From: an uncultured Flavobacteriaceae bacterium | Lineage (GTDB): Bacteria; Bacteroidota; Bacteroidia; Flavobacteriales; Flavobacteriaceae | Assembly (NCBI GenBank): GCA_913061125.1 | Contig: CAJXUB010000001.1 | Location: 46,424 to 110,423 of the forward strand | Reading direction: 5' to 3' | Length of the DNA stretch: 64,000 bases | Part shown: positions 44,972 to 54,697 of the stretch, one piece after another | How the letters are laid out: each line of letters begins with the position of its first letter | Numbering within the stretch: the stretch's first letter is position 1 | Notes under the pieces: model-generated | Told to the model about the DNA's origin: nothing | Seen by the model: the letters and a program-made list of their open reading frames with translations, nothing else | The model's database searches: none | Program-made: the position numbers and the translations under genes

Positions 44972-46252
44972 CTAGTTTAATTCTGGAAACTTTGCCTTGA
45001 TTTTATCCAAGGCCAAGTTGTCTATGGCTCCAATATGTTTGTGTTTGTGTCGTGTCCCACGTGCGTAAGATCCATCTTGAACTTGTGCCCCAATAACTTG
45101 GTAGGCTTCCCTAAATGTTGCACCATTTTGCACCAGAGAATTAATACTATCCACCGTAAATAAATACTTATACTTATCGTCTTCCAAATTCACCGATTTA
45201 ACTTCAATCTTTTGAAGGCCATAATCAAAAATAGACAATACCGTTTTAAGCGTTTCAAATGCTGAAATCATTGGTGATTTTAACAATTGAAAATCCCGAT
45301 GGTAGCCGCTTGGCAGGTTGTTCGTCATTAATTGCATTTGAGACGCTAAACCTTGTAAACCATTACATTTTGCACGGATTAATTCAAATACATCTGGGTT
45401 TTTTTTATGCGGCATGATACTACTGCCTGTTGTGAGCTGTTCTGGAAAGCTGATAAAATCAAAATTTTGACTCATATACAAGCAAATATCCATGGCAAAC
45501 TTGGAAAGAGTAAATGCTAGGTTGCCTAGACTTGAGGCAATGATTTGTTCGTTTTTTCCTCTTGCCATTTGAGCAGATACCACATTGTATTTTAAATCTG
45601 AAAAGTTCAGTAAATCTGTTGTCATTTCTCGGTCAATTGGAAAGGAGCTCCCATAACCAGCAGCCGAGCCCAATGGGTTCTGATCTACAACTTTTTGTGC
45701 TGACTGAAGCACCATAACGTCATCAATAAGAGATTCGGCATAAGCCGAAAACCAAAGCCCAAAGGAAGAAGGCATGGCAACCTGAAGATGAGTATAACCT
45801 GGCAATAATTTAGATTTATGCTGTTCTGCTAAATCTAATAAGGTCCCAAATAGGACTTTAACCTGATTTTGAATGTGGTTTAAATTGTCTTTATAATACA
45901 ATTGAAGTGCTACTAAAACCTGATCATTTCTGGAGCGTGCAGTATGTATTTTTTTTCCTGCGGTGCCAATGCGCTGGGTTAGCTCGTGCTCAATTTTAGA
46001 ATGAACATCCTCAAATTGGTTTTCGATTTTAAAAATGCCCCGCTCTTCTTCTTCTTGAAGTTCGCCAATAGCGTCCTCAACTTGTTTAAGCTCACTGTTG
46101 TTTAAAATTCCAATATGGGCTAACATTTTGGCATGTGCAAGGGAGGCTTGTAAATCATACTTAGCAATATACAAGTCAATGTCCCGATCATCTCCTACAG
46201 TAAATGTTTCAATAGTTTTGTCAATAGATATTCCTTTATCCCAAAGTTTCAT
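44972..46252 (-). CDS. argH: Argininosuccinate lyase
   Basis: TARSRNDQV, GSSIMPHKKNPDVFELIRAK signature. Confidence 0.96.
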   Translation of the reverse strand: MKLWDKGISIDKTIETFTVGDDRDIDLYIAKYDLQASLAHAKMLAHIGILNNSELKQVEDAIGELQEEEERGIFKIENQFEDVHSKIEHELTQRIGTAGKKIHTARSRNDQVLVALQLYYKDNLNHIQNQVKVLFGTLLDLAEQHKSKLLPGYTHLQVAMPSSFGLWFSAYAESLIDDVMVLQSAQKVVDQNPLGSAAGYGSSFPIDREMTTDLLNFSDLKYNVVSAQMARGKNEQIIASSLGNLAFTLSKFAMDICLYMSQNFDFISFPEQLTTGSSIMPHKKNPDVFELIRAKCNGLQGLASQMQLMTNNLPSGYHRDFQLLKSPMISAFETLKTVLSIFDYGLQKIEVKSVNLEDDKYKYLFTVDSINSLVQNGATFREAYQVIGAQVQDGSYARGTRHKHKHIGAIDNLALDKIKAKFPELN

Positions 46253-46255
46253 AGA

Positions 46256-47323
46256 TTAAAGTATTTTTTTTAATAATTGGATATATAATCTAACCCCTTC
46301 TTCAATTTCGTGGATATAAATAAACTCATCAGCTGTATGCGATCGTGTACTGTCTCCAGGACCTAACTTTAATGAAGGACAACTCAATACCGCCTGATCT
46401 GATAAAGTTGGCGAACCGTATGTTTCTCTCCCCATCTCGATCCCCGCTTGAACTAATGGATGGTTTTTAGGAATACTAGAAGAATTTAAATTTGTGCTAC
46501 GCGCTGTGGCTTTAGCGTTTGGTAAATGCTTTTGTAGAATAGCCACAATTTGAGCATTGGTATAACAATCGTTCACACGCACGTCTACCACCATAGACAC
46601 TTTTGCTGGAACGGCGTTGTGTTGCTGACCCGCATTAATTTGTGTAAGTGTCATCTTTACACTTCCCAAAGCCTCCGATTCTTGTTCAAATTTGTAGGTC
46701 TTTATCCACTCCATAACAGGTATGGCATTGTATAGCGCATTGTTACCATTGGGGTGAGCGGCATGACCTGGCGTACCTGATACCTCAACATCGAAAACAA
46801 TCAATCCTTTTTCTGCTATAGCCAAATGCATTTGAGTGGGTTCCCCAACAATAGCAACATCAATTTTGGGAATTACTTTAAGCATACTATTGAGGCCATT
46901 TGACCCGCTGCTTTCTTCTTCTGCAGAACCCACAAAAACCAAGTTATAGGCCAGTGATTCCTGAAAGTAAAAATGGGTGAATGTTGCCAAAAGTGACACC
47001 AAACATCCCCCTGCATCGTTACTCCCAAGACCATAAAGCTTACCGTCTTCAATATGTGCGTCAAAAGGATCTTTTGTGTATCCACTGTTGGGTTTTACAG
47101 TGTCGTGATGCGAATTCAGCAAAAGCGTTGGTTTAGAATCATCAAAATACTTATTAGTAGCCCATACGTTATTTTGATGACGTTGAAATGGAATATCAAA
47201 AGACTTAAACCACTGCTCCAAAAGCAAGGCCGTGAGATCTTCTTTTGAAGAAAATGAAGGTGTTTCTATCAAGTTTTTTAATAATTTAATAGCCGACTGA
47301 GTAAGCGAGTCTATAGTCATCAT
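46256..47323 (-). CDS. argE: M20 family deacylase (acetyl/succinyl-ornithine deacylase position)
   Basis: LLNSHHDTVKPNSGYTKDPFDAHIEDGKLYGLGSNDAGGCLVSLLA; VGSAEEESSG; in arg operon. Confidence 0.88.
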   Translation of the reverse strand: MMTIDSLTQSAIKLLKNLIETPSFSSKEDLTALLLEQWFKSFDIPFQRHQNNVWATNKYFDDSKPTLLLNSHHDTVKPNSGYTKDPFDAHIEDGKLYGLGSNDAGGCLVSLLATFTHFYFQESLAYNLVFVGSAEEESSGSNGLNSMLKVIPKIDVAIVGEPTQMHLAIAEKGLIVFDVEVSGTPGHAAHPNGNNALYNAIPVMEWIKTYKFEQESEALGSVKMTLTQINAGQQHNAVPAKVSMVVDVRVNDCYTNAQIVAILQKHLPNAKATARSTNLNSSSIPKNHPLVQAGIEMGRETYGSPTLSDQAVLSCPSLKLGPGDSTRSHTADEFIYIHEIEEGVRLYIQLLKKIL

Positions 47324-48099
47324 AGGGTTAAAGTTGTATGGTTATTGGAATTCCCCGAAAGCATGCTTGGCTGACCGATGCAAACCCTCGAAACTTGATG
47401 TTCTAAAGCATCAAAGGAGTTTTGTAGTTTTGGCAACATTCCATCGGATATAACTCCAGAAGCTAAAAGTTCAGTATATAATGACTTGTCTATAGTTTTG
47501 ATTAGAGTTGATGCAAGATCAATATCTTTTAAAACTCCTTGTTTTTCAAAACAGTAATATAATGTAACCTCAAAAATATCGGCTAGAGATTTTGCTAATG
47601 AGGCAGCAATAGTGTCTGCATTGGTATTGAGTAATTGTCCTTTTTTATTGTGCGTAATAGCAGAAAAAACTGGTGTTAAATCTGCACTTAACAACAATGA
47701 AATATAGTCCGAATTTACGTTTTGAACATCCCCCACAAACCCATAATCAACATCCAAAACAGGTCGTTTTACAGATTGAATAGAATTAGCATCGGCGCCG
47801 GAGCAACCTACGGCGTTACAGCCCAGTGCTTGAAGCTGAGCTACAATCGAAGTGTTAATTTGACCCGAATAAACCATCGTGATTACCTCCAAGGTCTTAG
47901 CATCTGTAATGCGCCGTCCATCCACCATTTGAACCTCCAATTGCATTTTTTGAGATAATGCTGTTGCTGATTTCCCTCCTCCATGAACCAATAGTTTTAA
48001 CCCATCCATTACGGAAAATTGAGATAAAAATGATCTTTTGGCCTCAGAATTGTCAAGAATATGACCTCCTATTTTTACAATACTTAATGACTGTTTCAT
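47320..48099 (-). CDS. argB: Acetylglutamate kinase
   Basis: MKQSLSIVKIGGHILDN; LLVHGGGKSATALSQKM; GVISDGMLPKLQNSFDAL. Start refined from 48168. Confidence 0.93.
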   Translation of the reverse strand: MKQSLSIVKIGGHILDNSEAKRSFLSQFSVMDGLKLLVHGGGKSATALSQKMQLEVQMVDGRRITDAKTLEVITMVYSGQINTSIVAQLQALGCNAVGCSGADANSIQSVKRPVLDVDYGFVGDVQNVNSDYISLLLSADLTPVFSAITHNKKGQLLNTNADTIAASLAKSLADIFEVTLYYCFEKQGVLKDIDLASTLIKTIDKSLYTELLASGVISDGMLPKLQNSFDALEHQVSRVCIGQPSMLSGNSNNHTTLTL

Positions 48100-49031
48100 A
48101 ATGATTCTAAAACTTGTTTCAACACAATCTGAGCCGCAAACGTTCGGTTGTGAGATTGATCGATACATAAAGACTTTGGGCTGTCAAGTACAGCGTCCTC
48201 CACCACAACATTTCGTCGAACAGGGAGGCAATGCATAAATTTAGCTGCACCTATTTTATCTTGTGTAATCATCCAATCTGATTTTGGCTTCAGAATTTTT
48301 CCATAATCCGTAAAACTGCTCCAGTTTTTGGCGTAAATAAAATCAGCATCTTTAAAGGCTTCTATTTGGTTATTAGATACAGCGGTATGCTTTACAATTG
48401 ATGGATCCAACTCATAACCCTTTGGGTGAACTATACTAAAATCCACATCTTGAAGCTGCATGGTTCGTACAAATGAATTGGCAACTGCATGCGGTAAAGC
48501 TTTTGGATGTGGGGCCCATGAAAGCACAACCTTTGGCTTCTTTTTGTCGCTTTGCTCTACAATAGTAATGGCATCGGCTAATCCCTGTAAAGGATGAGCT
48601 GTGGCACTTTCCATATTAATTAGTGGAACTGAGGCATAAGTAGCAAAAGCATTCAAAACCCACTCAGACTGATCCTTGGCCTTGTCTATTAAAGTTGGGA
48701 ATGCCCTTACACCAATAATTGAAGCGTATTGAGAAATGACTTGAGCGGCCTCTTTTATATGTTCCGAAGACTTTAAATCCATAACCGCTCCTTCTTCAAA
48801 CTCTAATTGCCATGCATCATTGACATTTAAAACAATGACATTCATCCCCAAATTTTTGGCCGCCAACTCTGTACTAATTCGGGTTCTTAAACTCGCATTA
48901 AAAAATAACAAGACTAAGGTCTTTTGAGCACCAAGACTGCTGTATGCGTGTGGATTGGCTTTTAATGCAAGAGCGTCTTGAACGGTTTTGTTCAAATCTT
49001 TAATGCTATTGATGTTTAAAAAGTGATTCAT
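48096..49031 (-). CDS. argF': N-acetyl/N-succinyl-ornithine carbamoyltransferase (ArgF' type)
   Basis: FFNASLRTRISTELAAKNLGM; MHCLPVRRNVVVEDAVLDSP; arg operon context. Confidence 0.92.
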   Translation of the reverse strand: MNHFLNINSIKDLNKTVQDALALKANPHAYSSLGAQKTLVLLFFNASLRTRISTELAAKNLGMNVIVLNVNDAWQLEFEEGAVMDLKSSEHIKEAAQVISQYASIIGVRAFPTLIDKAKDQSEWVLNAFATYASVPLINMESATAHPLQGLADAITIVEQSDKKKPKVVLSWAPHPKALPHAVANSFVRTMQLQDVDFSIVHPKGYELDPSIVKHTAVSNNQIEAFKDADFIYAKNWSSFTDYGKILKPKSDWMITQDKIGAAKFMHCLPVRRNVVVEDAVLDSPKSLCIDQSHNRTFAAQIVLKQVLESL

Positions 49032-50152
49032 AATTCTTGTTTTAAAGCGCTGAAAAAAGCATCAATATGTTCTTTTTGAATGGTAAGAGGAGGTAAAATG
49101 CGAATCAAATTTGGGTTTTTTGAACTTCCTGTAAATATTTTATGTTTGAAAAGTAGTGTTTTTCTTAATTTAGAAACTGGGAATTCAAATTCCAATCCAA
49201 GCATCAATCCTCTTCCTTTAAATTGTAAAATTTGAGGAATATCTTCTGCCAATTGCCTAAAATAAAGTTCCATTTGCTGAGCATTCTGCATCAAATCTTG
49301 ATTTTTTAACACCTCCAAAACACTAAGAGATGCGGCACAAGCCAAGTGATTTCCTCCAAAGGTTGTTCCTAAAAGTCCATAAGAGGCTTTTATGTCTGAA
49401 TGAATCAAAATTCCACCCACAGGAAATCCGTTGCCCATGCCTTTGGCCATAGAAATAATGTGCGGGGTAATCCCATGTTTTTGAAAGGCAAAAAAATCAC
49501 CGCTGCGCCCAAAACCAGATTGCACCTCATCGGCAATAAGTAAAGAACCGTACTGTTTGCACAACTCCTCCAAACCTTTGTAAAATTCTGTAGTACTTTG
49601 GTCTAAACCACCAACTCCCTGAATACATTCAATAATGATGGCGCAAGTTTCTCCTTTTTGAAGCGTTTTCTCTACCGCCTCCAAATCACCTAATGGATGA
49701 AAATCCACTTTTTGTTGTGCATTAAGTGGCGAAATAATTTTTGCATTATCCGTACTTGCCACCGCAGCAGATGTTCGCCCATGAAAAGAATTCTGAAAAG
49801 CAATTACAGAAGCTTTATTGGTGTGAAAGGAGGCTAATTTCAGTGCGTTTTCATTGGCTTCTGCACCTGAGCTGCAAAGAAATAACGCATAATTATGACA
49901 GCCCGAATCCGTAGCCAATTGCTTCGCTAATTCATTTTGCAATGGGTTTTTAACCGCATTACTATAAAAACCAAGCTTGTTCAGTTGTTGGGTTATGCCC
50001 TCAACATACTTAGGATGAGCATGACCTATGGAAATCACAGCGTGACCTCCGTAAAGGTCCAAATATTGCACCCCTTGTTCGTCAAAAATAAAAACATCTT
50101 TTGCTTGAACTGGCGTTACATCAAACAATGGATAAACATCAAATAACTTCAT
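49028..50152 (-). CDS. argD: Acylornithine aminotransferase
   Basis: FLCSSGAEANENALKLA, LLIADEVQSGFGRSG, ISMAKGMGNGFPVGG. Confidence 0.94.
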   Translation of the reverse strand: MKLFDVYPLFDVTPVQAKDVFIFDEQGVQYLDLYGGHAVISIGHAHPKYVEGITQQLNKLGFYSNAVKNPLQNELAKQLATDSGCHNYALFLCSSGAEANENALKLASFHTNKASVIAFQNSFHGRTSAAVASTDNAKIISPLNAQQKVDFHPLGDLEAVEKTLQKGETCAIIIECIQGVGGLDQSTTEFYKGLEELCKQYGSLLIADEVQSGFGRSGDFFAFQKHGITPHIISMAKGMGNGFPVGGILIHSDIKASYGLLGTTFGGNHLACAASLSVLEVLKNQDLMQNAQQMELYFRQLAEDIPQILQFKGRGLMLGLEFEFPVSKLRKTLLFKHKIFTGSSKNPNLIRILPPLTIQKEHIDAFFSALKQEL

Positions 50153-50949
50153 ACTTGATTGGTTTTAATGGCATTAATTTTTTGAAATGACGCCACCATG
50201 CCTTGAATCAATGATGAACTAAGGCCTTTGTGTTCCATTTCATTGAGCCCTTCAATGGTGCAACCCATCGGTGTGGTCACTTTGTCAATTTCTTGTTCAG
50301 GGTGATTCCCATTTTTGATTAACAATTGAGCTGCACCTTCACTAGTGTACATGGCCAATCGTTGCGCTTGTTTGGCATCGAAACCCAATTGAATAGCCGC
50401 CTGTGTAGTGGCTCTTATTAATCGCATCCAAAAGGCAATTCCACTGGCGCAAACTACTGTTGCGGCTTGCATCTGTTCCTCTGGAATACAAATTGTTGCT
50501 CCAAGTCTATTGAAAATAGCTTCGGCTACGGATAATCTTGATTTGCCTGTTTCATTACTGCACAAGCAGGTCATAGATTTACCAACGGCGATAGCTGTAT
50601 TTGGCATCGCTCTTATGATGTAATTTTGAGCACCAACAAGGGTTTCAATTTTAGTTATTGGGAATCCAGTAATGGTTGAAATTAAAATGTGTTTTTCTGT
50701 TAGAAAGGGGGCGATATTTTCTAAAATGAACTGTAAATGAGCGGGTTGAACTGCAAAAATCAAAATGTCCGAATTCTGTACAGCTTTGCTATTGTCCGTG
50801 GTAAGATAAACATTTTTGTAGCCATCAAATTCTTTTAGTGCTTCTAGCCCTCTCCGCGTTAAATATAAAGACGTAATGGCATTATTGATGATAAGTCCTT
50901 TGGCAATTGAACGCCCTAAGTTTCCTGTTCCAATGATTGCTATTTTCAT
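50149..50949 (-). CDS. proC: Pyrroline-5-carboxylate reductase
   Basis: MKIAIIGTGNLGRSIAKGL; RAMPNTAIAVGKSMTCL; KVTTPMGCTIEGLNEME. Start refined from 51009. Confidence 0.94.
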   Translation of the reverse strand: MKIAIIGTGNLGRSIAKGLIINNAITSLYLTRRGLEALKEFDGYKNVYLTTDNSKAVQNSDILIFAVQPAHLQFILENIAPFLTEKHILISTITGFPITKIETLVGAQNYIIRAMPNTAIAVGKSMTCLCSNETGKSRLSVAEAIFNRLGATICIPEEQMQAATVVCASGIAFWMRLIRATTQAAIQLGFDAKQAQRLAMYTSEGAAQLLIKNGNHPEQEIDKVTTPMGCTIEGLNEMEHKGLSSSLIQGMVASFQKINAIKTNQV

Positions 50950-50959
50950 TTTTTTAATT

Positions 50960-51937
50960 TTAAAAATAATTTGCTTTGAGTTGTAATCCTGTTGTTTCTT
51001 CAAGTCCAAACATCAGATTCATGTTTTGAACAGCTTGACCTGATGCGCCTTTTAAAAGATTATCGACAGCACTGGTTATGAGTAATTTATTGTTGTGTTT
51101 ACTAAGATGTATCAAACATTTATTGGTATTAACCACCTGCTTGAGATGAATTTCATTTTCAGAAATTATTACAAAAGGCGATTTGTCATAAAACGATTTA
51201 TAAAGCGTCGTAATGGCCTCCAAACTCTCGTTTAACTCCAAATATATACTTGCAAAAATGCCTCTAGAGAAATTACCTCTATTAGGTATAAAATTCAATT
51301 CAGAATCAAAATTATTTTGCACTGCAATCAATGATTCCTTAATCTCTGCCAAATGCTGATGTTTAAAAGCCTTGTAATGAGAAAAATTATTGTCTCTCCA
51401 CGTAAAATGAGTCGTTGCTGAAGGGTTAGTCCCAGCACCAGTTGCTCCTGTAACTGCATTAATATGAACCGGACTTTGAATCAAATTTTTAGCCGCTAAC
51501 GGTAAAAGTGCTAATTGAATAGCTGTTGCAAAACAGCCAGGATTAGCAATGTATTTGGCCTTGATTATTGCCTTTTTATTCAATTCGGGGAGCCCGTATA
51601 TAAATTGTTTAGCTTGAAAATTAGCCGAAATATTCAGCCTAAAGTCGTGACTCAAATCGATGATTTTTGTTTGCTTAGAAAACAAATGGTTTTCTAAAAA
51701 TGCTTTTGAATTTCCATGCCCTAAACACAAAAATAAAACGTCGATATTTGGATTTATTTGATCTGAAAAATTTTGATATGATTCGCCTACCAAATCTTGA
51801 TGAATATCACTCAGTGGGCGGCCTGCGCTTGATGTGCTGTACACAAAATTTAGGGCTGCTTTAGGGTGATTTATTAGCAATCGAATCAGCTCACCAGCAG
51901 TGTATCCTGCTCCACCAATTATTCCTACTTGTATCAT
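50960..51937 (-). CDS. argC: N-acetyl-gamma-glutamyl-phosphate reductase
   Basis: VGIIGGAGYTAGELIRLLINHP; YIANPGCFATAIQLALLPL. Confidence 0.95.
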   Translation of the reverse strand: MIQVGIIGGAGYTAGELIRLLINHPKAALNFVYSTSSAGRPLSDIHQDLVGESYQNFSDQINPNIDVLFLCLGHGNSKAFLENHLFSKQTKIIDLSHDFRLNISANFQAKQFIYGLPELNKKAIIKAKYIANPGCFATAIQLALLPLAAKNLIQSPVHINAVTGATGAGTNPSATTHFTWRDNNFSHYKAFKHQHLAEIKESLIAVQNNFDSELNFIPNRGNFSRGIFASIYLELNESLEAITTLYKSFYDKSPFVIISENEIHLKQVVNTNKCLIHLSKHNNKLLITSAVDNLLKGASGQAVQNMNLMFGLEETTGLQLKANYF

Positions 51938-53130
51938 GATTTAGAATTTATATTTTGAATAATTTTGTTTTGATTGGCCGTAATTTTTATAAATCCTTTC
52001 GCATCGTCGGCAGTCCATGCAGTATTCATTTCGCCATAGCTTGCAAAATTAGATTTCATCAAATCATAAGGAGAATCAACACCATTTAGCATAAAGTGAT
52101 AGGGCTTTAAAACCACTGTGACATCTCCACTAACATTGGCCTGACTCGATTGAAAAAATGCTTCCATATCACGCATCACTGGATCTAAGTATTGACCCTC
52201 GTGTAGGTGCATTCCATAGTAACTGGCCAAACTGTCTTTGTGTTGCAGTTGCCATTTGGAAAGGGTGTGTTTTTCCAGCAAATGGTGGGCTTTAATGACG
52301 ATTAATGCTGCAGCGGCTTCAAAACCAACTCTACCCTTAATGCCCACAATAGTATCACCAACATGAATATCTCTTCCAATGGCGTAAAGAGAAGCAAGAT
52401 CATTTAGCTTTTGAATATTTTGAAGCGGAGCGTTTGAAATCCCATCAATGGCTGATAATTGACCTTTATCAAAACTTAAAACTACTGTACTTTGATTCTT
52501 CTTTCGTAATGGTGAGGGATAAGCTTCTTCAGGCAAAGCCAAATGAGAGGTCAATGTTTCATCACCGCCGATACTCGTCCCCCAAAGCCCTTTATTTATG
52601 GAATATTTCGCTTTGTCCCAAGCCAAGTCAACCCCTTTTGATTTTAAATACGTGATTTCATCTTCCCTACTTAATTTATGATCTCGAATAGGGGTAATAA
52701 TTTGAATTTCTGGTGCCAAGGTTTGAAAAATCATATCAAAACGCACTTGATCGTTTCCTGCACCTGTACTTCCGTGTGCAATGTATTTGGCATTTATGGA
52801 CTTAGCATAAGTTACGATTTCTATGGCATGGATTATACGCTCAGCACTAACAGAAAGTGGATAGGTATTGTTTTTAAGGACATTTCCAAAAATTAAATAC
52901 TTAACGACTTTTTGATAAAATTGCTCCGTAGCTTCAATATTTTTGTAAACTGAAACACCCATTTTATAGGCTTTTGCCTCTATGGATTGAATTTCGTTTT
53001 TAGTAAAGCCCCCTGTATTGACACTAATGGCGTGGACCTCAAAGCCCAAATCTTGAGAAAGGTGTACTGCACAATACGAAGTATCCAATCCGCCACTATA
53101 GGCCAAAACTAATTTATCTTTAGAATTCAT
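51934..53130 (-). CDS. argG: Argininosuccinate synthase
   Basis: KLVLAYSGGLDTSYCAVHL; AHGSTGAGNDQVRFD. Confidence 0.96.
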   Translation of the reverse strand: MNSKDKLVLAYSGGLDTSYCAVHLSQDLGFEVHAISVNTGGFTKNEIQSIEAKAYKMGVSVYKNIEATEQFYQKVVKYLIFGNVLKNNTYPLSVSAERIIHAIEIVTYAKSINAKYIAHGSTGAGNDQVRFDMIFQTLAPEIQIITPIRDHKLSREDEITYLKSKGVDLAWDKAKYSINKGLWGTSIGGDETLTSHLALPEEAYPSPLRKKNQSTVVLSFDKGQLSAIDGISNAPLQNIQKLNDLASLYAIGRDIHVGDTIVGIKGRVGFEAAAALIVIKAHHLLEKHTLSKWQLQHKDSLASYYGMHLHEGQYLDPVMRDMEAFFQSSQANVSGDVTVVLKPYHFMLNGVDSPYDLMKSNFASYGEMNTAWTADDAKGFIKITANQNKIIQNINSKS

Positions 53131-53750
53131 TTCATTTGTTTTTTGAGAAAAAGAGTTTGTTTTATGCTTTTTAAACGTTTAAAGGTTGATGGCTTAATCT
53201 TTTTTTGATTTTTCTGTTTTTGATTTTTTGGATCAAATAACATCCCCGTACACAAGCACATGGTTTGCTCAGTACGTTGTAAAACATCATAATTTTTACA
53301 CGTTTGACATCCCTTCCAAAAAGACGGCTCCTTGGTCAGTTCAGAAAAGGTCACAGGTTTGTACCCCAAATTAGTATTGAGCTTCATAACGGCTAACCCC
53401 GTGGTAATACTAAACACCTTGGCTTTTGGGTATTTAGTTCTGGAGTGATCGAATACCAATTGTTTGATTTTTTTTGCCAATCCTTGATTTCTGTAATCGG
53501 GATGTACAATTAGCCCAGAATTGGCTACAAACCGTTGGTGATCCCAAGTTTCGATGTAACAAAATCCAGCAAATTTATCGCCATCCAATGCGATGACTGC
53601 GTCTCCTTGATCCATCTTTGCACAAATGTATTCTGGTGAGCGCTTAGCAATACCTGTCCCTCTGACTTTTGCTGCAGCTTCAATGGTGGCGCAAATAACT
53701 TGCGCATAAATATGATGAGATTTATCTGTGATAACCAATTTCATTATCAA
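53127..53750 (-). CDS. GNAT family N-acetyltransferase, first gene of arg operon (candidate glutamate N-acyltransferase)
   Basis: GLIVHPDYRNQGLAKKIKQLVFD acyl-CoA motif; overlaps argG start. Confidence 0.85.
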   Translation of the reverse strand: MIMKLVITDKSHHIYAQVICATIEAAAKVRGTGIAKRSPEYICAKMDQGDAVIALDGDKFAGFCYIETWDHQRFVANSGLIVHPDYRNQGLAKKIKQLVFDHSRTKYPKAKVFSITTGLAVMKLNTNLGYKPVTFSELTKEPSFWKGCQTCKNYDVLQRTEQTMCLCTGMLFDPKNQKQKNQKKIKPSTFKRLKSIKQTLFLKKQMK

Positions 53751-53833
53751 TAGATTAAATAAGAGTTAAAACTAAAAGAAAATTGAAAAGAAAGAACCGG
53801 ACTCACCTAAGTTCCAAAAATTAAAGATACACC

Positions 53834-53932
53834 CTAAGGGCGACGGCGGTTGTGACGCGGAAACAACGAAGCACTACTCGGTCGAGCTAATAAACAAATT
53901 TTTGCTGTTGTAAAATGTGGGTTAATCATCAT
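53834..53932 (-). CDS. Candidate Arg-rich leader peptide of the arginine operon (MMINPHFTTAKICLLARPSSASLFPRHNRRRP)
   Basis: Reverse-strand ATG ATG ... CCG CGT CAC AAC CGC CGT CGC CCT TAG; 84 nt upstream of the first arg-operon ORF; below the ORF-track length cutoff. Confidence 0.65.
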   Translation of the reverse strand: MMINPHFTTAKICLLARPSSASLFPRHNRRRP

Positions 53933-54089
53933 TAACATATAACATCTCAAAACTATAAATTAATTTTTTATTTGAAACTCCAGATTCAAATTATTTTGAA
54001 AAATTGAAGAATTGTCAGTTGTTTATTAAAAAAATGACTATTTGTGAAAAAATAACCCTTAAAATCATTTAAACGAAAAATCTACACAA

Positions 54090-54136: not shown

Positions 54137-54697
54137 TTAATTGTTTGAGGCAGGAAGGCGTTGGTAAACATAAAATTTATTCACTTTTCCGTTCTCAAAG
54201 TAAATATCTGACAAGTGAATAAACTGAGCGTCTTGTCCATTTACACTCATGGTCACTTGTGCCCCAGTAACAACCCATTGTCCGTCTTTTTGAGTTTCCA
54301 GATCATTGACTTTCATTGGAAACGAGAAAAAGGTATTCCACTTGGGGTTGGCGCCTTCAAACCATGCTGCCAAAAATGCTGCATGCGCCTCCTTACCTTG
54401 AATATATTCCCCATTTGGCCCCCAGATTTGGATATCATCAGACTCCATATCCATGATGGCGTCTATATTTCTATCATTATGAACTTGAATATATTGATCC
54501 CAAAGATCAACTACCGAATTGTCTCCAGAGGAAGCCGTATATGTTTTGTTTGGTGTTTTTAAATAGCCAACCGCCCTATCTATTTCAATAATTTTTTCTG
54601 GTGCTGGGGGTGGAGGCGTCTTTTTTGAATTACCAATACTTATAGCACACGAGGTTATTACAATAAAAGAAAGGCTTAATAATACTAATTTTTTCAT
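54137..54697 (-). CDS. Nuclear-transport-factor-2 (SnoaL)-like lipoprotein
   Basis: Lipobox IVITSCAISIG; VVDLWDQYIQVHNDRNIDAIMDMESDDIQIWGPNGEYIQGKEAHAAFLAAWF. Confidence 0.75.
   Translation of the reverse strand: MKKLVLLSLSFIVITSCAISIGNSKKTPPPPAPEKIIEIDRAVGYLKTPNKTYTASSGDNSVVDLWDQYIQVHNDRNIDAIMDMESDDIQIWGPNGEYIQGKEAHAAFLAAWFEGANPKWNTFFSFPMKVNDLETQKDGQWVVTGAQVTMSVNGQDAQFIHLSDIYFENGKVNKFYVYQRLPASNN

Follow-up and report, generated by a model that had tools for sequence, protein, structure and literature searches.

Upstream of the arginine biosynthesis operon in the window, by which we mean the whole 64,000-nt stretch of DNA analyzed here, the minus strand carries a short open reading frame (ORF) with clustered arginine codons at its 3′ end. 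Comparison with related loci strongly supports reading this ORF as a leader that encodes an Arg-rich peptide within the 5′ region of that operon, given a conserved frame, a conserved start codon, Arg residues retained under different codon spellings, and a fixed place before the same genes. The same comparison shows a conserved, Arg-coding leader with the sequence marks of translation, three paired hairpins, and linkage to the arg operon. We consider it probable, if well short of certain, that the ORF is an arginine-sensing leader acting by ribosome-mediated attenuation, with hairpin H1 as a weak terminator; ribosome stalling, termination at H1, and the roles of hairpins H0 and H2 are what we infer from this arrangement. 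The first-pass annotation of the region had proposed both a leader peptide and arginine-responsive attenuation. The former is borne out by the comparison of loci, while the latter is still a proposal.

The leader ORF, its operon, and its conservation

All features described here lie on the minus strand. The leader ORF has 32 codons (positions 53834 to 53932; MMINPHFTTAKICLLARPSSASLFPRHNRRRP, then stop). As first reported, its 3′ end reads CGT CAC AAC CGC CGT CGC CCT TAG, with four Arg codons among the last seven sense codons, and the peptide ends in R-H-N-R-R-R-P-stop. The putative control region (CGT CAC AAC CGC CGT CGC, 53840 to 53857) contains all four, each of them a CGY codon. Chance is excluded as the origin of this end: when the 392-nt region upstream of the operon was shuffled 5,000 times with dinucleotide composition preserved, ORFs of 15 to 60 amino acids contained at most three Arg among their last seven codons, none reaching four. 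Elsewhere in the whole window, four Arg in the last seven codons occur in one other ORF, near position 2201; its tail, MYRGRGSRRR-stop, belongs to a longer frame and is no leader.

The preceding gene ends at 54137, with a terminator-like hairpin beyond it (54118 to 54087). Between that hairpin and the leader lies a predicted promoter −7 box, TAGTTTTG (53948 to 53955), which follows the Bacteroidota consensus TAnnTTTG, given in a published study as spanning −12 to −5 (PMC9723704). The box predicts a transcription start near 53943, 11 nt upstream of the leader ATG. Downstream of the leader are nine genes identified by Pfam and ORF analysis. The first encodes a GNAT-family acetyltransferase (53127 to 53744), whose ATG at 53744 agrees with relatives and which may catalyze the initial acylation step of the arginine pathway in these bacteria. 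The others (44972 to 53130) encode an argininosuccinate synthase (argG), an ArgC-type dehydrogenase (argC), ProC (proC), an ArgD-type aminotransferase (argD), a carbamoyltransferase (argF-type), an amino-acid kinase (argB), an M20 deacylase (argE-type), and an ArgH-type lyase (argH). The leader stop lies 89 nt from the ATG at 53744; the 84 nt given earlier fits a TTG at 53750 instead.

Using the GNAT protein as query, we gathered 110 loci from relatives, and frames were compared across 94 distinct loci of Flavobacteriaceae, with H1 as the anchor. Every one of these loci keeps the leader frame open over 20 or more codons, whereas the other two frames stay open that far in only 18 and 14 loci. 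At 52 of 56 loci with two leaders (described below), an NTG stands at codons −30 to −28, while other three-codon windows score 0 to 14. The first base of this NTG varies (TTG 37, ATG 11, and GTG 5); variation at that base alone, with the position of the triplet constant, is the mark of a start codon. Leader Arg codons are CGC or CGU in 330 of 376 cases (88%), compared with 157 of 701 (22%) in the adjacent GNAT gene, a bias not wholly independent of RNA structure because part of it sits in H1. Conservation of the peptide is confined to the Arg(-Pro) end; the N-terminal 20 residues show none. Two findings that the first-pass annotation had named as refuting its reading, a transcription start downstream of 53834 and a lack of conserved Arg codons in relatives, did not emerge: the predicted promoter box precedes the ORF, and relatives retain the Arg codons. 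As a side observation, two records (CALSPC010000006.1 and PALD01000066.1) are titled as Rhodobacteraceae and Cytophagaceae MAGs, respectively, yet their arg loci are typical of Flavobacteriaceae, so mistaken titles or mixed bins are possible.

An additional upstream Arg-rich leader of roughly 17 to 29 amino acids (MILMKNKIRPSSPAMLLRRRCAF and relatives) is present at 56 of the 94 loci, a few of which (such as L018, L019, and L097) are doubtful. At two-leader loci such as L046, L045, and L016, the first leader lies about 220 to 130 nt upstream of the H1 anchor, and its stop typically falls about 48 nt before the start of the second. This first leader appears to be mostly leaderless in the mRNA sense: where a promoter box is recognizable, its ATG coincides with the predicted +1 in 33 of 50 loci and lies within one base of it in 44 of 50. 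No consensus structure was predicted over the first leader of the tandem loci, where the alignment is poor. The genus represented by the window has only the downstream leader, with its own promoter box.

Arg-rich leaders also occur elsewhere in Bacteroidia. Outside the family, 11 of 32 loci have a short ORF with at least four Arg in its last 12 codons, compared with 0.7 expected from shuffles. For example, two loci with the same GNAT start (L173 and L177) encode RRPFSRRPARV-stop in AGG and AGA codons, and a third (L164) encodes RPFRPSRRPHGGIC with AGG, CGC, and AGA. A further genus (g149), probably Flavobacterium judging by its make-up, has a conserved leader peptide, e.g., MNKTSLHITSLSRTNRPTTSPEVRML, written mostly in CGG codons. 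That Arg is kept while its codons differ between lineages points to selection on the amino acid, and these differences constitute a natural test of control-codon choice. We found no Arg-rich leader at four Bacteroidia loci with the same operon start (L025, L027, L171, and L183). Within g149, loci L158 to L160 and L185 to L203 carry a CGG-coded SR...SPEVR leader and lack H2, with other hairpins in its place at some loci.

Hairpins H0, H1, and H2

The first-pass annotation recognized the ORF and H1; the promoter box, hairpin H0, and the conservation of the region were missing from its picture. H0 (GCUC-GACC-GAGU, 53876 to 53887) lies inside the leader ORF and typically begins 48 nt ahead of the final Arg codon. 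It is weak in the window itself, with four pairs, one of them G-U, and is recognized from other paired sequences at the same place in relatives. Stems within the window's genus read ACUU/AAGU, ACUC/GAGU, and GCUC/GAGU, and in tandem-type loci, where the stem covaries, all six pairs have changed on both sides.

H1 (CGCCC-UUA-GGGUG, 53830 to 53842) spans the final Arg codon as well as the stop codon and, together with the U-rich stretch that separates it from H2 (53816 to 53829), resembles a terminator. It is the CCCTTAGGG hairpin of the first-pass annotation, which was correct, and the comparison of loci provides variants such as GCCC-GUAA-GGGU, as well as CAC/GUG in Salegentibacter- and Gramella-like loci. 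The T content of the stretch between H1 and H2 averages 56% over loci, compared with 37% over the 60 nt leading up to the GNAT start. A U-rich tail follows H1 in 56 of the 75 loci with a 5-bp stem, where 15.5 would be expected by chance. H1 with its tail satisfies a loose terminator rule in 56 of 94 loci and fails it in 38. With only four to five pairs and a loose U-tract, H1 is weak as an intrinsic terminator. The RRP end of the leader keeps a conserved Pro codon after the Arg run, and proC lies inside the arg operon at 50149 to 50949; Pro itself may matter, or the H1 stem may fix its codon.

H2 (GGAAC-UUAGGUGAGUCCG-GUUC, 53794 to 53815) has a nearly invariant loop, AGGUGNGUCC, at 53808 to 53799. 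A second hairpin had been placed correctly in the first-pass annotation, but the proposed pairing of GGA(A)CT with AGTCC does not hold; comparison instead supports a stem of GGAAC...GUUC(C) that closes the loop AGGUGAGUCC. Among loci aligned to a covariance model, on which the analysis of H1 and H2 was performed, the stem covaries (GGAAC/GUUCC, GGAAAU/AUUUCC, GGAGAU/AUCUCC, and GAAAG/CUUUC) around AGGUGNGUCC, and the N of the loop is A, U, or C but never G in this set of family loci. The percentage paired and the covariation score of H1 and H2 together were reached by none of 500 shuffles. Kinship of the sequences inflates covariation scores, yet the scores collapse when pairing partners are slid by one to three columns.

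The H1 and H2 covariance model matches 186 of 301 family genomes, with a single match per genome among the matches listed, and in a 250-genome sample of the phylum it matches only members of Flavobacteriaceae. In the first 37 genomes, the element was present in all scanned GNAT carriers and in no scanned genome lacking GNAT. Of 43 matches checked, 42 precede the arg operon, with the loop 56 to 147 nt before the GNAT start; the remaining one departs from the loop pattern used. Across loci, the distance from the H2 loop to the start of the first gene is usually 56 to 70 nt, but it reaches 82 to 154 nt in about one-tenth of them, some with inserted hairpins. With Rfam covariance models, neither the window leader (E up to 1) nor five relatives (gathering score) gave a relevant match, and phage records gave no match. 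A second genomic copy of the H2 loop, AGGTGNGTCC at L112, was taken as chance, as the 3-kb stretch around it is dominated by a 604-aa ORF and contains no second arg leader.

H2 is terminator-like at just 1 of 94 loci, and an intrinsic-terminator role was rejected. Its variable loop base is not associated with the third position of the Arg codon that precedes it, and the whole 5′ region of the window folds no better than shuffles. No antiterminator pairing covaries among the Flavobacteriaceae loci. The sole predicted competing pairing, CGCC of H1 with GGUG of H2, is possible and invariant across loci. H2 is a compact conserved RNA that may have a binding partner.

Proposed mechanism and alternatives

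In the attenuation model, RNA polymerase would begin near 53943, and a ribosome would enter the 32-codon leader immediately. With charged tRNA-Arg plentiful, the ribosome would pass the CGY codons and be released at the stop codon, which lies in the H1 loop; the hairpin would then fold before the U-rich stretch, and many transcripts would terminate. When arginine is scarce, the ribosome would stall on the Arg codons, H1 would not form, and polymerase would read through into the operon. Because the Arg codons make up the left side of H1, a halted ribosome would block the hairpin directly, with no need for an antiterminator. H0 may be the counterpart of the early pause hairpin in classical attenuators, and H2 would be present only in read-through RNA, as a second, arg-specific element. 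Between transcription and translation, a choice that the first-pass annotation left open, the sequence leans toward transcription. A terminator-like H1, its direct blocking by the ribosome, and an H2-to-start distance that varies from 56 to 154 nt, which speaks against sequestration of the start site, together favor attenuation at the transcriptional level.

Several observations count against this model: H1 would make a weak terminator, no covarying antiterminator was seen, the folding of the window's 5′ region does not exceed that of shuffles, and an Arg-rich leader is missing from some Bacteroidia loci that share the operon start. The model also leaves H2, the best conserved part of the region, without a role. 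A composite sensor, in which one or two Arg-codon leaders (the first of them leaderless) feed an arg-dedicated H2, with a dedicated trans-acting factor, RNA polymerase, or arginine recognizing its nearly invariant AGGUGNGUCC loop, has some chance of being correct, if a small one. If so, leader and H2 together would constitute a hitherto undescribed type of attenuator.

The same arginine-sensing leader could instead end in Rho-dependent termination or mRNA decay, with Rho loading, after departure of the leader ribosome, onto the G-poor spacer that separates H2 from the start codon. We consider this unlikely. The spacer, about 49 nt long, averages 4.7% G and 16.9% C, although G-poor 5′ regions are common in these AT-rich genomes. 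The weakness of H1 as a terminator would fit, as would the precedent of Salmonella speF orf34, a leader with two Arg codons that acts via Rho and RNase G (PMC6386406), but the U-rich tail of H1 would go unexplained. Distinctly unlikely is translational control of the first arg gene, whereby rearrangement of H1 and H2 would hide or free its start region; the precedent is rbfL of Staphylococcus aureus, at which a stalled ribosome influences the start downstream (PMC13009471). The usual spacing of 56 to 70 nt between the H2 loop and the ATG is short enough to suit such a switch; the loci with 82 to 154 nt or inserted hairpins do not suit it, no conserved pairing extends to the start codon, and a leader-bound ribosome would be too distant to cover the start of the first gene.

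It is very doubtful that the hairpins, chiefly H2, are the regulator proper, as a site for a protein or for arginine, with the Arg codons minor and the ORF kept for some other reason. The near-invariance and arg-specificity of the H2 loop would be expected under such a scheme, and the CGY run does lie partly inside the H1 stem. However, the open frame and start codon are conserved far upstream of the hairpins, Arg-rich leaders remain in lineages lacking this H2, and the first tandem leader is likewise Arg-rich. Finally, although a short upstream peptide does precede an arginine-pathway gene here, a nascent peptide that senses free arginine from within the exit tunnel, in the manner of the fungal arginine attenuator peptide, or a functional small protein is hardly credible, as either needs a conserved sequence and only the Arg(-Pro) end is kept.

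Relation to known attenuators and Arg-codon leaders

Amino-acid operons of the trp, his, thr, and leu type are controlled by ribosome-mediated attenuators. The arg leader resembles these in having a short ORF rich in codons for the end product, downstream hairpins, and a place directly before the biosynthetic operon: the ORF lies between the predicted promoter and the first gene, and its codon run matches the operon's product. It differs in the amino acid concerned, arginine; in doing without a strong terminator/antiterminator pair; in holding its Arg codons within the terminator-like hairpin; in the extra hairpin H2 with its conserved loop; and in the tandem leaders of many species. Control of arg genes is commonly attributed to ArgR, and to our knowledge leader-peptide control of arginine synthesis stands outside the textbook set. 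Bacteroidota, as far as we know, lack Shine-Dalgarno sequences, and near-leaderless sensor ORFs would therefore suit their translation. We found no paper in the open-access literature on leader-peptide control of arginine synthesis in Bacteroidota; an earlier description elsewhere is possible.

The closest parallel within the family comes from Flavobacterium psychrophilum, for which leader-peptide attenuation of amino-acid operons has been proposed, with conserved structured 5′ elements at pheA, hisG, and others (PMC9723704). Like the arg leader, these elements are absent from Rfam and belong to the same proposed mechanism class; unlike here, no arg element is named in the main text of that study. 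Salmonella orf34, a 34-codon ORF upstream of speF, senses arginine by consecutive Arg codons but controls ornithine decarboxylase and not arginine synthesis, uses Rho and RNase G, and encodes an unrelated peptide (PMC6386406). The arg leader falls outside the orf34 family (DUF2618), as it precedes an arg operon and its peptide lacks the HIRRT core (PMC6386406). Nor is it of the fungal arginine attenuator peptide type, being conserved just at its Arg-rich end. The S. aureus leader peptide rbfL senses arginine limitation through Arg codons as well, but these are AGA and AGG, the peptide acts on the translation start of rbf, and the account of rbfL reports no related RNA structure (PMC13009471). 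As described in these sources, the known Arg-codon leaders thus serve speF and rbf rather than arginine biosynthesis operons (PMC6386406, PMC13009471), whereas the leader reported here precedes just such an operon and is widespread in Bacteroidia.
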